A stretch of 64,000 nucleotides of DNA, from the NCBI RefSeq assembly GCF_003387475.1, contig NZ_QUNO01000003.1, positions 434,001-498,000 on the forward strand. The letters run 5' to 3'. Each line of letters opens with the position of its first letter. Position 1 is the stretch's first letter. The notes beneath the pieces were generated by a model. That model searched no databases and was not told where the DNA came from. It worked only from the letters and a program-made list of their open reading frames with translations. Origin of the DNA: Kutzneria buriramensis. GTDB taxonomy: Bacteria > Actinomycetota > Actinomycetes > Mycobacteriales > Pseudonocardiaceae. Position numbers and translations under genes: made by a program. Of this stretch, positions 18,575-23,233 are shown in pieces.

Positions 18575-19603
18575 GTGGTCGTGCACCGCCCCAACTCCCG
18601 TCCCACCTTGGAGGATGTGGCGGCCAAGGCCGGCGTGTCCAGGGCGACCGCGTCCCGGGTGCTCAACGGCTCGCCCAAGGTGAGCCCCTCGGCCCTGGAG
18701 TCGGTCAACTCCGCCGTGCTGGAGCTGGGCTACCAGCCCAACCAGGCCGCCCGGACCCTCGTCACGCGGCGGACCGGCGCGGTGGCCGTGCTCATCTCCG
18801 AGCCCCAGCCCAAGATCTTCAACGACCCGCACTTCGCCGGCCTGGTCAAGTACGCCGCGATGACGCTCGGCGCGCGGGACTCCCAGATGGTCCTCGTCCT
18901 CGTGCACACCCCCGAGGACCAGCTGCGGGCCCAGCGGTTCCTCGCCGGCGGGCACGTCGACGGCGCCCTGCTGTTCACGCCGCACCAGGACGACCCCCTG
19001 CCCACCTCCGTCCGCAAGCTCTCCCTGCCCGTCGTGTTCGGCGGCCGGCCGTGGGGGTCCCTGCGGGGTCTGCACACCGTCGACAACGACAACGAGAACG
19101 GCGCCGCCATGGCCACCCGGTACCTGGCCGAGCGCGGCTGCCGGCAGATCGTCAGCGTCACCGGTCCCGTCGACGAGCTCGCCGCCACCGATCGCCTCGC
19201 CGGCTTCCGCGCCGCCACCGGCGCCGACGACCGCCGGCTCGCCGAGATCACCGAGTGCGGGTTCTTCAACCGCGAGGGCGGGGAGCGGGCCATGACCGCC
19301 CTGCTCTCGCGGGTTCCCGACCTCGACGGCGTCTTCGCCGCCAACGACCTCATGGCCGCCGGCGCGATGGCCGCGCTGCGGGCCGCCGGAAAGCGTGTTC
19401 CACAGGACGTCGCCGTGGTCGGTTTCGACGACGACGAGTCCGTGGCCCCGCACACCGACCCGCCGCTGACCTCCGTCCGTCAGGACATCGGCCGTCAGGT
19501 GCAGGCCATGGTCGACCGCCTGGACTCCCTCATCCGCGGCGAGGAGCCCCGCCACCGTCACCAGATGCTCCCCGTGGAACTGGTGCACCGCCAGTCGGCC
19601 TGA
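18575..19603 (+). CDS. LacI family transcriptional regulator
   Basis: 342 residues. N-terminal HTH and hinge (about 10-65): PTLEDVAAKAGVSRATASRVL and YQPNQAARTLVTRRTGA. The C-terminal part is a periplasmic-binding-protein-like effector domain with DGVFAANDLMAAGAM and VAVVGFDDDESVAPHTDPPLTSV. The GTG at 18575 has GAGGAG upstream. It converges with a GH1 gene whose promoter carries two matching operators; it most likely represses that gene and itself, with a sugar as inducer. Confidence 0.92.
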   Translation: MVVHRPNSRPTLEDVAAKAGVSRATASRVLNGSPKVSPSALESVNSAVLELGYQPNQAARTLVTRRTGAVAVLISEPQPKIFNDPHFAGLVKYAAMTLGARDSQMVLVLVHTPEDQLRAQRFLAGGHVDGALLFTPHQDDPLPTSVRKLSLPVVFGGRPWGSLRGLHTVDNDNENGAAMATRYLAERGCRQIVSVTGPVDELAATDRLAGFRAATGADDRRLAEITECGFFNREGGERAMTALLSRVPDLDGVFAANDLMAAGAMAALRAAGKRVPQDVAVVGFDDDESVAPHTDPPLTSVRQDIGRQVQAMVDRLDSLIRGEEPRHRHQMLPVELVHRQSA

Positions 19604-19660: not shown

Positions 19661-20593
19661 TTAGACGGCGACTGCGGCGGGGTGGCGGGCGGTCTGCTCG
19701 GTGACCATGAGCGGGAGCTCGGGGTAGTCGATGGACAGCCGGAGCATGAGGTCGGCGAAGGACTCGCCGAGCGGCTCGCCGTAGGAGGGGGCCAGGAGGC
19801 GGACGCCGCGAAGGCCGGGGTGGGCGCCGCCGGTGACCGAAGCGGGGTCGTCGGCGGGGGCGACGCGGGTGGGGCCGTAGTAGGTGACGCCGTACCAGTT
19901 GACGGGTTCGGCGATCAGGGAGAGGTCGCCCGGCAGGACGACGTCCTGCCAGCGGCCGAGCCACGCGGTGTCGGCGACGACGTCGGCGGGATAGCCGCGG
20001 CCGAAGAGGGGGTCGAGGAAGAAGCGGTTGCGCAGGCCGTCGACCTTGCGGAAGACGGTGGCGTGCGGCTGGTCGTCGCGGTCGACGACCACGGTCGTCA
20101 GGTTGAGGACGATGGAGACCTCGTGCTCGGGCGACTGCTCGCGGATCGCGGACACGGCGAGGCCGTGCCCGAGCAGCAGGTGGTGCGCCGACCGCAGCGC
20201 GGCGACGGGGTCGTGCGCGTAGCCGAGGAACGCCGCGCGCGACGGCTCGTCGAGAGTGGTCCACAGCCGCACACGGTCGCCCAGCGCGCCGTGCACGGCC
20301 GTGGTGTATTCGGCGAACCGGAGGGCCGTCTCACGGTTCGTCCAGCCGCCGGCCTCGTCCAGCGACTGCGGCAGGTCCCACTGGTAGAGGGTGGCGATCG
20401 GGGTGACGCCCTTGTCCAGCAGGCGGTCCACGAGCCGGTCGTAGAAGGCCAGGCACGCCCGCGGCGCTGCGCCGCGTCCCTCTGGCTGCACACCCGCCCA
20501 GGCCACCGGGAACCGGTAGGCCGGCCGGCCGAAGCCGGCGAAGGTGTCCCAGCAGCCGTCGGCGGTGGCGGCGACCGTCCGGCTTCTGCCCAT
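19661..20593 (-). CDS. Shortened glycoside hydrolase family 1 protein (beta-glucosidase-like)
   Basis: 310 residues, against about 450-480 for normal GH1. Recognisable: YRFPVAWAGVQPEGRG, VTPIATLYQWDLPQSLDEAGGW, TTLDEPSRAAFLGY (acid/base Glu116, usual NEP altered to DEP), NWYGVTYYGPTR, and LPLMVTEQT (nucleophile Glu299, usual TENG altered to TEQT). Missing: most of the first barrel strand region between WDTFAG and YRF, and everything after the nucleophile, including the Trp-rich aglycone loop. The TIM barrel would be incomplete, so this is probably inactive or on its way to a pseudogene. GAGGAGG 8 nt before the ATG and two LacI operators upstream show the expression signals are intact. Confidence 0.75.
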   Translation of the reverse strand: MGRSRTVAATADGCWDTFAGFGRPAYRFPVAWAGVQPEGRGAAPRACLAFYDRLVDRLLDKGVTPIATLYQWDLPQSLDEAGGWTNRETALRFAEYTTAVHGALGDRVRLWTTLDEPSRAAFLGYAHDPVAALRSAHHLLLGHGLAVSAIREQSPEHEVSIVLNLTTVVVDRDDQPHATVFRKVDGLRNRFFLDPLFGRGYPADVVADTAWLGRWQDVVLPGDLSLIAEPVNWYGVTYYGPTRVAPADDPASVTGGAHPGLRGVRLLAPSYGEPLGESFADLMLRLSIDYPELPLMVTEQTARHPAAVAV

Positions 20594-20619
20594 CGTCCGT
20601 CCTCCTCGACGCGCGCGTG

Positions 20620-20662
20620 GGTGAGAGCGCTCTCACCTTGACCGTGACAGCGCTCACTGTCA
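20620..20662. promoter_or_regulatory. Two LacI-type operators upstream of the GH1 gene
   Basis: GGTGAGAGCGCTCTCACC (20620-20637) is a perfect 18-bp palindrome. GTGACAGCGCTCAC (20644-20657) is an imperfect one with the same AGCGCT core, embedded in TGACAG-N6-CTGTCA (20645-20662). The sites are 27-69 nt upstream of the GH1 start and also upstream of the divergent mgtA leader. They match the site before the LacI gene at 18494-18507. Confidence 0.8.
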
Positions 20663-20738
20663 AGGCGTTGACAAGAATCGCGGCCAGTCGCAGCCGTGCC
20701 GCTACCCTGACCGAGGGTGACGAGAGGAGGTGGTCGCG

Positions 20739-20795
20739 GTGAGTACCGACGGAAGTAGTCGCAGCTCCGCGGCCGCCCGGTACCTGTCTGCCTGA
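20739..20795 (+). CDS. 18-residue leader peptide ORF upstream of mgtA
   Basis: GTG at 20739 is preceded by a perfect AGGAGG (20725-20730) with an 8-nt spacing, stronger than the ribosome site of mgtA itself. The frame encodes MSTDGSSRSSAAARYLSA and stops at TGA 20793-20795, 44 nt before mgtA. Its 3' half can pair with the sequence just after its stop. Position, size and signal fit a regulatory leader peptide of the mgtL type, though no sequence similarity to enterobacterial MgtL is visible. Confidence 0.6.
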   Translation: MSTDGSSRSSAAARYLSA

Positions 20796-20822
20796 CCAGT
20801 GCCGCGTGGCCATCGCCCACGC
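20768..20822 (+). promoter_or_regulatory. Mutually exclusive RNA pairings in the mgtA leader
   Basis: CGCGGC inside the leader ORF (20768-20773) is complementary to GCCGCG just after its stop (20801-20806). GCGTGG (20804-20809) is also complementary to CCACGC (20817-20822), and the two pairings share bases 20804-20806. Ribosome position on the leader ORF could switch between them, affecting access to the weak mgtA ribosome site (GGGAG, about 20828-20832). No U-run is evident, so translational or Rho-type control is likelier than intrinsic attenuation. Confidence 0.35.
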
Positions 20823-20839
20823 CCACTGGGAGTCTTGTC

Positions 20840-23233
20840 ATGACCAGGACGACGCACGCCGTCGCCGCGACGCTCACCGAACTCGCGTCGATGGACGCCG
20901 GCACGCTGATCCGCCACCTCGGCGCGAGCCCGGCCGGCCTGACCAGCCTCGAACGCGACGCCCGGCTGTCCCGCCACGGCCGCAACCGCATCGCCGGGGC
21001 GGACGGCCCGCGCTGGACCGGCCGCCTGCTGCGCTGCGTGCGCAGCCCCTTCGTCGGCCTGCTGCTGGGCCTGGACCTGGTGCTGGCGCTGACCGCCAAC
21101 ATCGCCGGCGCGGTCACCGTCGGCGTGATGGTGCTGGTCGGCGTGCTGCTCCGGTGCTGGCAGGAACACCGCTCCGACCAGGCCGCCAAACGTTTGCGGG
21201 CCCTCGTCGCGACCACCGCCACCGTGGCCCGGCGCGGCAGCCGCTCGCCGCGACGGTTCGCCGGCCCGCCCGGGACGGTCACCACCGAACTGCCGGTGGA
21301 GCTGCTGGTGCCCGGCGACGTCGTGCACCTCAAGGCGGGCGACCTGGTGCCGGCCGACTGCCGGCTGCTCACCGCCAACAACCTGGTCGTCGAGCAGGCG
21401 ACGCTGTCCGGCGAGTCGCTGCCGGTGCGCAAGACGGTGACGACGGACCACATCGCCGGCAACGTGCTCGACTCGCCGGTGTTCTGCTTCCTCGGCTCCA
21501 CGGTGGTCGGCGGCTCGGCGACGGCGGTGGTGGTCGGCACCGGCGCCGAGACCTACCTGGGCGCCATCGCCGAGCGGCTGACCCAGCCGGACCGCGACGC
21601 CGACGCCGGCATGCGGTCGGTGAGCTGGACCCTGATCCGGTTCACACTGGTGTTGGCGCCGATCGTGCTGGCGGTCAGCGGCCTCACCCACGGCGACTGG
21701 GCCGAGGCGGCGCTGTTCGCGGTCTCGGTCGCCGTCGGCCTGACGCCGGAGATGCTGCCGGTGATCGTCACGACCAACCTCGCCAAGGGCGCCGTCGAGC
21801 TGTCCGAGCGGCAGGTGATCGTGAAGCGGCTGCGGGCCGTGCACGAATTCGGCCAGCTGGACGTGCTGTGCGTGGACAAGACCGGCACGCTCACCGACGA
21901 CCGGATCACACTCGAGCACACCGACGACCGGACGCTGGAGCTCGCCTACCTCAACTCCGCGTTGCAGACGGGCCTGCGCAACCCCTTCGACCGGGCGGTG
22001 ATCGACGCCGTGGAGCCGGACCACCGGCTCATCCTCGAGGCGGGCTGGCGGCTGGTCGACGAGCTGCCCTTCGACCACGAGCGCCGCCGGATGTCGGTGA
22101 TCGTCCGAGACACCGAGGGTCGGCACCTGCTCGTCACCAAGGGCGCCGTCGACCACGCACAAGCCGAGCACGGCACGAGGGTGCTGGGCCTGTGGTGCAA
22201 GGAGATCGAGCCCCGCGAGATCTACCAGCTCGCCGACGAGGACGGCGCCGAGCTGGTCGGCCACCTGTTCTTCCGGGACCCGCCGAAGGAGTCCGCCGCG
22301 ACGGCGATCCAGCAGCTGACCGAGCTGGGCGTCCGCATCGTCGTCGTCACCGGCGACAACGAGCGCGTCGCCCGCAAGGTCTGCCGCGACATCGGCATCC
22401 CGGACGCCACCGTGCACGCGCGGGCGACGCCGCCCCGCAAGGCGGAGATCGTCCGCGAGTTGAAGGAAGCCGGCCACACCGTCGGCTTCCTCGGCGACGG
22501 CGTGAACGACGCCCTCGCGCTGCGCGAGGCCGACCTGGCGATCTCCGTCGGCGGCGCGGTGCCGGTCGCGCGGGACATCGCCGAGGTGATCCTGCTGCAC
22601 AAGGACCTCACCGTGCTGGCCCAGGGCGTCCTTGCCGGCCGGCGCACCTTCGCCAACACCATGAAGTACGTGAAGCTGACCGCCAGCTCCAACTTCGGCA
22701 ACGTGCTGAGCGTGCTCGCGGCGGCCGTGTTCCTGCCGTTCCTGCCGATGCTGCCGGTGCAGCTGCTGGTCCAGAACCTGGCGTATGACGTAGCTCAACT
22801 GGCGATCCCGTGGGATGGCGTGGATCGTGAGCAGGTGAGCTCTCCTCGCAAGTGGGCCGGCGGCGACCTCGCCCGGTTCATGCTCCTGGTCGGCCCGCTC
22901 AGTTCCCTGTTCGACCTCGTCCTGTTCGCGGCGATGAGCCACTACGACCCCGCGACCTTCCAGACCGGCTGGTTCGTCGAGGGACTGCTGTCGCAGCTGC
23001 TGATCGTGCACGTCATCCGCACGCAACGGCGCTCCCGGGCCGCCCTGCCGGTGATCGTCGCGACGGCCGCGGCCGCCGCGATCGGGCTGGCGCTGCCGTT
23101 CACGGGGCTTTTCGGTCTGGTACAGCTGCCCGCCACCTACTTCCCCTGGCTGGCCGCCACACTCGTGGGCTACTGCGCGCTGGTGCAGGCCGTGAAGACC
23201 TTCTACGTACGCAAGTTCGCCACCTGGCTGTGA
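20840..23233 (+). CDS. mgtA: Magnesium-transporting P-type ATPase
   Basis: 797 residues. A P3B-type ATPase importing Mg2+ at the cytoplasmic membrane. The phosphorylation motif is DKTGT (Asp346); LSGES in the actuator domain replaces TGES; the subfamily signature GLTPEMLPVIVTTNLAKGA sits in the TM4 region; VVTGDN and GDGVNDALALREADLAISV form the P-domain hinge. The nucleotide-binding domain is shorter than in enterobacterial MgtA (about 900 aa). ATG 20840 has GGGAG at 8 nt. It is followed 9 nt later by mgtC. A short leader ORF upstream suggests post-initiation control. Confidence 0.92.
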   Translation: MTRTTHAVAATLTELASMDAGTLIRHLGASPAGLTSLERDARLSRHGRNRIAGADGPRWTGRLLRCVRSPFVGLLLGLDLVLALTANIAGAVTVGVMVLVGVLLRCWQEHRSDQAAKRLRALVATTATVARRGSRSPRRFAGPPGTVTTELPVELLVPGDVVHLKAGDLVPADCRLLTANNLVVEQATLSGESLPVRKTVTTDHIAGNVLDSPVFCFLGSTVVGGSATAVVVGTGAETYLGAIAERLTQPDRDADAGMRSVSWTLIRFTLVLAPIVLAVSGLTHGDWAEAALFAVSVAVGLTPEMLPVIVTTNLAKGAVELSERQVIVKRLRAVHEFGQLDVLCVDKTGTLTDDRITLEHTDDRTLELAYLNSALQTGLRNPFDRAVIDAVEPDHRLILEAGWRLVDELPFDHERRRMSVIVRDTEGRHLLVTKGAVDHAQAEHGTRVLGLWCKEIEPREIYQLADEDGAELVGHLFFRDPPKESAATAIQQLTELGVRIVVVTGDNERVARKVCRDIGIPDATVHARATPPRKAEIVRELKEAGHTVGFLGDGVNDALALREADLAISVGGAVPVARDIAEVILLHKDLTVLAQGVLAGRRTFANTMKYVKLTASSNFGNVLSVLAAAVFLPFLPMLPVQLLVQNLAYDVAQLAIPWDGVDREQVSSPRKWAGGDLARFMLLVGPLSSLFDLVLFAAMSHYDPATFQTGWFVEGLLSQLLIVHVIRTQRRSRAALPVIVATAAAAAIGLALPFTGLFGLVQLPATYFPWLAATLVGYCALVQAVKTFYVRKFATWL

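Follow-up and report, generated by a model that had tools for sequence, protein, structure and literature searches.

A conserved short reading frame before mgtA–mgtC in Pseudonocardiaceae, a probable leader-peptide attenuator related to the reading frames behind M-boxes

In this study, we asked whether a short upstream open reading frame (uORF) in front of an mgtA–mgtC gene pair is a chance reading frame or a regulatory leader, and how it relates to known leaders of Mg2+ genes. The window, by which we mean the whole analysed DNA stretch of 64,000 nucleotides, contains the elements collected in Table 1. The original prediction had described the 18-codon uORF, its well-spaced AGGAGG and the gap of 44 nt to the ATG of mgtA at position 20840, all of which we could confirm from the letters. 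It had also ranked the ribosome site of the uORF above that of mgtA; the AGGAGG lies 8 nt before the GTG, and the GGGAG of mgtA is reasonable as well. By itself, a uORF with an AGGAGG could have arisen by chance, since AGGAGG followed by ATG or GTG 5–10 nt further on occurs seven times when both strands of the window are counted, three times opening an ORF of 5–30 aa; it is the conservation of the uORF that lifts it above chance. We consider it fairly probable that we are dealing with an attenuator of the mgtA–mgtC unit that works in cis through a leader peptide, a kind of element that M-box leaders also contain but that operates by itself here.

Table 1. Elements of the mgtA–mgtC leader and its surroundings, in window coordinates.
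Feature	Positions	Strand	Basis
Inverted repeat TGACAG-N6-CTGTCA, possible operator 5' of the leader	20645..20662	.	Letters; also in divergent relative L087/L098
-10-like TACCCT (relatives TACCAT or TACACT), putative promoter 5' of the uORF	20703..20708	+	Leaders aligned by eye, inferred
AGGAGG, Shine-Dalgarno (SD) of the uORF, 8 nt before GTG	20725..20730	+	Letters; kept in relatives
Start-codon hairpin CGGT-GAGT-ACCG	20737..20748	+	Window form by eye; family form GCCGG-NTGA-CCGGC from RNAalifold
Leader-peptide uORF VSTDGSSRSSAAARYLSA, 18 codons, GTG...TGA	20739..20795	+	Letters re-read; conservation; best M-box uORF profile match in the window
Core codons GAC GGA AGT AGT (D/E-G-S-S), with rare AGT	20748..20759	+	Codon tally against usage in downstream genes
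P3 helix, 5' strand (uORF side)	20768..20783	+	Letters; assignment to family helix by eye; family covariation
P3 helix, 3' strand (post-uORF)	20799..20811	+	Letters; family covariation
Alternative hairpin GCGTGG/CCACGC, exclusive with P3	20804..20822	+	Letters
GGGAG, Shine-Dalgarno of mgtA	20828..20832	+	Letters
mgtA-like P-type cation ATPase, 797 aa	20840..23233	+	Pfam E1-E2_ATPase, Hydrolase, Cation_ATPase_N, Cation_ATPase_C
mgtC, 244 aa	23243..23977	+	Pfam MgtC, MgtC_SapB_C

A sigma-70 consensus scan of the leader region (20594–20900) returned no promoter-like site, and no terminator-like site was found on its plus strand. The sole terminator-like site of the region lies on the minus strand at 20681–20696 and points to the divergent gene. 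The TGACAG-N6-CTGTCA repeat might be an operator for mgtA or for the neighbouring gene. Directly 5' of the divergent gene (19661–20593), which we take to be a family-1 glycosidase, a perfect 18-bp palindrome GGTGAGAGCGCTCTCACC at 20620–20637 could represent a LacI-type operator; the nearby gene at 18575–19603 is presumably LacI-like.

The 251-base leader stretch has a single match in the host genome (G000; 11.97 Mb in 65 contigs), in which a second mgtA on contig C13 (L149) is preceded by a related leader, MTGDGSSSPHHAAARVRQA. Matches to the window's mgtA were obtained in six of seven genomes of the genus, and the uORF precedes all six orthologues, the window's own counted. The encoded peptides (VSTDGSSRSSAAARYLSA in the window, where Pro is absent, VSTDGSSRSSTAARHPSA, VSSDGSSRSSAAAPMH, VSSDGSSSSCPTAARYPSV, VSTDGSSRSSTAARRMV and LSTDGSSPLAAPLPRA) share a constant N-terminus, while the C-terminus varies. 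The C-terminal ARYLSA, proposed as an arrest motif, belongs to this variable part (HPSA, RMV, RYPSV, APMH and PLPRA in the nearest relatives), and we do not retain this proposal.

The conserved leader block was also found beyond the genus by DNA search. Throughout the family, matches to a sequence pattern were obtained in 35 of 390 genomes from 9 of 46 genera, with two matches for the reversed pattern. From 40 distinct matches, L126 and L148 were dropped as false for having no stop codon nearby, leaving 38 confirmed uORF copies in 33 genomes and 8 genera. All 38 lie upstream of a gene on the same strand, and they encode 16–23 aa. The strict pattern matched the host genome alone among 394 genomes of the class, indicating that the GGNAGTAGT form is narrow; the looser M-box form described below occurs elsewhere. 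With six of six orthologues in the genus and 38 copies in the family, the original reading as a leader-peptide ORF of Mg2+ genes with neither Pro runs nor an M-box is supported, and the ORF is conserved.

A pattern-free protein search of 190 genomes yielded 20 mgtA places, of which 11 bear the uORF, seven in the strict form (L159 being counted through L149) and four in relaxed forms (VTGDRSS... twice, MTDLSDATDPTGSP... and MTDDGSP...). No uORF was found at the nine remaining places of this search (L156–L158, L165 and L167–L171), which indicates that the leader is dispensable. In L156, L157 and L158, mgtA closely follows another gene, which in L157 we take to be corA-like. L167–L170 are distant mgtA homologues (48–49% identity); their short, uORF-less leaders contain a palindrome of the TTACGCAACTG type where the promoter is presumed to lie, and a seemingly ArsR-like gene lies divergently alongside, both judged by eye. 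L171, the second mgtA of genome G017, is preceded by a leader that looks decayed and contains no uORF. L165 (G042:C1, mgtA at 4994918–4997455, minus strand) is a natural leader deletion, which retains the presumed promoter and the start of mgtA but has lost the entire leader; its relatives L163 and L164 have the uORF.

Across the 38 copies the N-terminus reads M-[TS]-x-[DE]-G-S-S. The start codon is GTG in 27, ATG in 10 and TTG in one, and position 4 is E in 26 and D in 12, with all four GAN codons in use. Codon 6 is AGT in 37 of the 38 copies and codon 7 in every one, compared to 32 of 962 Ser codons (3.3%) in the downstream genes, and GGA is codon 5 in 36 of 38, compared to 91 of 1822 Gly codons; it should be noted that the search pattern required GA, GG and AGY AGY, so that identity at these positions is partly imposed, but T in place of C was not demanded by the final pattern. 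Relatives found without the pattern are laxer in the core, with R5 in L161 and L162 and a single Ser in L163 and L164. Despite length changes, a later GCGG block remains in frame with the start codon in 34 of 35 aligned leaders. The uORF is conserved and under coding constraint.

We compared the uORF leader with the M-box riboswitch (RF00380), likewise a leader of Mg2+ genes. No RF00380 match above 44 bits is present in the window or in the whole host genome. A search of 26 hand-picked genomes, ten of them picked for having the leader, identified 20 M-boxes in 8 genomes, and 19 of the 20 are followed by a GGAGG-led uORF located 60–127 nt past the aptamer. Its peptides begin with MSPGDSP, MSSSDSP, MSPDDSP, MSTDDYH and others, and AGT is found at codon 2 in 18 and at codon 6 in 16 of the 19; exceptions are L182, which has no uORF start codon, and the divergent L179 (MPEGNSQ). 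In L145, the M-box (138 bits) lies directly 5' of a uORF reading MSPDGSS.... Outside the mycobacterial genus, the combination of M-box and uORF was observed in L145/L184, L177, L178, L185, L190, L192 and L193. In G017 (L137, L171), an M-box with the uORF MSTDDYH lies within about 1 kb of both mgtA genes, in divergent orientation.

For a quantitative comparison, a profile was built from 13 M-box uORF copies from 5 genomes of one genus, probably Mycobacterium, an assignment resting on what we take to be PPE genes behind four of the copies. In 64 kb on both strands, position 20739 ranks first on this profile (22.9 vs 10.9), with 15.7 contributed by the SD; scored without the SD, 2 of 127958 positions reach as high, the window's uORF itself included. 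Type-2 leaders, the form that makes up the family alignment discussed below, score a mean of -11.5 on the same profile, with a better match elsewhere in the locus for 27 of 40. An M-box-type pattern gave two matches in 12 further genomes (none when reversed), both behind M-boxes (L192 and L193), and one of these two uORFs precedes a presumably CorA-like frame. In a Streptomyces mgtA locus (L004) that has no M-box, MSPDRSPCRALAG is located about 490 nt ahead of mgtA, and in a Nakamurella mgtA locus (L066) an M-box is present with a weakly similar uORF. Judged by this resemblance of sequences, the element in the window is an M-box-type uORF leader standing without an M-box, real and conserved. 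The independent actinobacterial origin suggested initially looks wrong, since in mycobacteria and other Actinobacteria the M-boxes are followed by a uORF which the one in the window resembles.

A uORF in this position has been described: PMC12810186 (2026) reports uORF2 (Rv1805A) behind mycobacterial M-boxes with a conserved N-terminus and Pro at position 7, and calls it mycobacteria-specific and its role unclear, suggesting a regulatory or structural peptide. As far as titles and abstract openings tell, we found no account of such a leader outside mycobacteria. The mycobacterial uORF2 (Rv1805A/Rv1535A/Rv0115A) resembles the window's uORF in its GAGGAGGTG SD, its start and its AGT-rich N-terminus (M-S-x-x-D-S-P compared to M-S-T-D-G-S-S in the window), is found mostly close to genes for Mg2+ or metal transport and is, like the window's leader family, conserved mainly in its N-terminus. 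It differs in lying 3' of an M-box, which the window's uORF does not, and in residue 7, which is Pro in 12 of the 13 profile copies and Ser in the window; the mgtA leader L164 (MTDDGSP) has Pro7. From position, N-terminus and Pro7 we infer that the 13 profile copies are this uORF2.

Behind the 38 confirmed copies we found mgtA in 35 cases, recognised by an [STH]P[KSA]GLT motif that these proteins share near their beginning rather than by individual full searches, and in one case each mgtC (L110/L151), an NRMT-like transporter and an ABC transporter. The gene downstream in L145 is a member of the Nramp family, whose best solved relative is 7qia (E 5e-58; next Nramp 1.5e-15). This accession is named in the paper on the Mg2+ transporter EleNRMT (PMC8806188), which makes EleNRMT the closest solved relative of the L145 protein, a likeness of the target gene and not of the regulator. 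Nramp-family frames that are 71% and 62% identical to the one of L145 lie behind M-boxes in L186 and L178, about 340–390 nt after the uORF. In L150, the uORF is followed by a two-domain ABC permease and then by an ATPase with AAA_assoc_C, and the M-box of L179 precedes an ABC permease that shares 58% identity with the one of L150 across 380 residues; the two-domain permease is a candidate Mg2+ transporter. Target genes of the same kinds, ABC and Nramp, are thus found behind the uORF leader and behind the M-box. Because of this gene company and the link to M-boxes, Mg2+ is the signal that we would expect.

We next consider RNA structure, where the original prediction had named two pairings, 20768–20773 with 20801–20806 (CGCGGC/GCCGCG) and 20804–20809 with 20817–20822 (GCGTGG/CCACGC), which indeed overlap and are mutually exclusive. 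In an alignment of 35 type-2 leaders (A1, imperfect in places, at L150, L161 and L162), which does not include the window and its type-1 kin, RNAalifold detected two helices only: P2, whose loop contains the start codon of the uORF (columns 83–95), which is almost invariant and hence shows little covariation, and P3, between the uORF and the segment after it. For P3, 87.6% of cells are paired, compared to 27–52% in slid copies, and both sides changed in 27 cells compared to 6.0±2.9 in shuffles (0 of 500); one of five measures, the number of further pair types, was not unusual (100 of 500 shuffles). The two richest pairs comprise A–U 11, G–C 11, G–U 10 and other 2, and A–U 10, G–C 10, G–U 7 and other 8. 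In an alignment-free swap of partners between 11 clusters, P3 was equalled in 52 of 20000 swaps, a signal that comes from five clusters, since the other six natives, including the window's, were matched by at least five of ten swapped partners (seven of ten for the window). Four other region pairs gave no signal among the 11 clusters, the complementarity between the post-uORF segment and the SD region of mgtA showed no covariation (4350 of 20000 swaps as good), and the same test on 14 of the 19 M-box uORFs was weak (749 of 20000).

In the window, P3 would correspond by eye either to the first predicted pairing or to a longer 12-pair form nearby, composed of GGCCGC (20771–20776) and CGGTAC (20778–20783) on the uORF side and GTGCCG (20799–20804) and GTGGCC (20806–20811) on the other. 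The first pairing thus fits a helix that covaries in the family, albeit in an alignment to which the window does not belong, while the second has no covariation support: by eye, it is unchanged in L083, L084 and L086, has one mismatch in L085 and may be replaced by a different hairpin in L087. With P3 starting at uORF nt 26–32 in 34 of 35 aligned leaders, the helix begins about where a ribosome pausing on codons 5–6 would end, roughly one ribosome reach past the core codons, which suits pausing at the core. A simple switch masking the SD of mgtA was not supported, since partition-function folding with the ribosome positioned on the core or on the stop codon did not open or close this SD consistently (opener when paused in 9 and opener at the stop in 14 of 42). 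Such uORFs are found in other families before mgtA, mgtC, NRMT-like and ABC genes and in the absence of an M-box, and their coding bases can pair with the leader; this speaks for a regulator acting in cis.

Comparable known short ORFs encode MgtL and MgtP, the Pro-rich leader peptides of mgtA and mgtCBR in enterobacteria; their translation appears to select one of several RNA folds, with Mg2+-dependent pausing or drop-off switching Rho termination. They share with the window's leader the placement of a short ORF before mgtA or mgtC; no sequence likeness was seen, and the RNA is different. For the window's leader, comparison establishes the uORF, how conserved it is, which genes it accompanies, its resemblance to the uORFs of M-box leaders and, for the family, helix P3; the model that we propose adds the following steps, beginning with translation of the uORF. 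A ribosome would start at 20739 and cross the acidic-Gly-Ser-Ser stretch with its rare AGT codons. If it pauses or drops off at this core, presumably in response to Mg2+, the remaining uORF could pair with the post-stop segment to form P3, whereas a ribosome reaching the stop codon would melt P3 and leave the post-stop segment free for other pairings. The choice of fold, with a sign that we assign only provisionally, would then set the output of mgtA, via translation of mgtA or via Rho. The latter is a candidate output step, as in the mycobacterial M-box leader according to PMC12810186. A similar uORF lies between M-box and gene in mycobacteria and other Actinobacteria; in the genus and family of the window it is employed without the M-box.

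Among the alternatives, a passive role of the uORF survives best, although we regard it as unlikely: the uORF would keep the transcript covered as a translation-coupling or anti-Rho device, while a DNA-binding repressor at the promoter regulates. Palindromes near the presumed promoters, of ACTTGCGCAAGT type ahead of the type-2 leaders and, in the window, TGACAG-N6-CTGTCA (by eye), would suit such a repressor, as would the ArsR-like frame seemingly divergent beside L167–L170 (by eye) and the persistence of presumed promoter and mgtA start in L165 after loss of the whole leader. Yet a passive device leaves the rare AGT codons, the acidic position and P3 unexplained, as well as the presence of such a uORF behind M-boxes. 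Clearly less probable is that the uORF encodes a small protein acting in trans, which would partner or regulate Mg2+ transporters in the way proposed for Rv1805A; the conserved N-terminal peptide speaks for this, as does the regulatory or structural peptide suggested by the authors of PMC12810186. Such a protein would hardly be expected to vary between 16 and 25 aa with an unconserved C-terminal half, to have AGT fixed at synonymous sites, to have coding bases that form pairs with the leader further downstream, as seen in the family, or to be encoded upstream of a gene on the same strand in 38 of 38 copies. Least probable of all is an RNA or DNA element, for example a protein-binding site, that merely resembles an ORF, since the conservation of GGAAGTAGT at wobble positions is outweighed by the exchange of ATG, GTG and TTG at a near-fixed SD spacing, the interchange of D and E at codon 4, where all four GAN codons occur, and length changes that stay in frame in 34 of 35 leaders.

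Returning to the leader-peptide attenuator, we tentatively extend it to a wider proposal, which we hold with much less confidence than the attenuator itself. An actinobacterial family of leader peptides may sense Mg2+ via the ribosome alone, with an acidic-Gly-Ser-Ser stretch and rare AGT codons instead of the Pro motif of MgtL. It might form the second half of a two-sensor device in M-box leaders, might have replaced the riboswitch before mgtA in Pseudonocardiaceae, and could mark the two-domain ABC transporter with its AAA_assoc_C ATPase as a Mg2+ transporter. With uORFs of this kind in other families, the role of the uORF behind mycobacterial M-boxes becomes testable in soil actinomycetes, and the leader uORF could serve as a marker for Mg2+ transport genes. 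The leaders compared here may further represent an evolutionary series, leading from riboswitch and uORF together over the uORF alone to none, as in L165.
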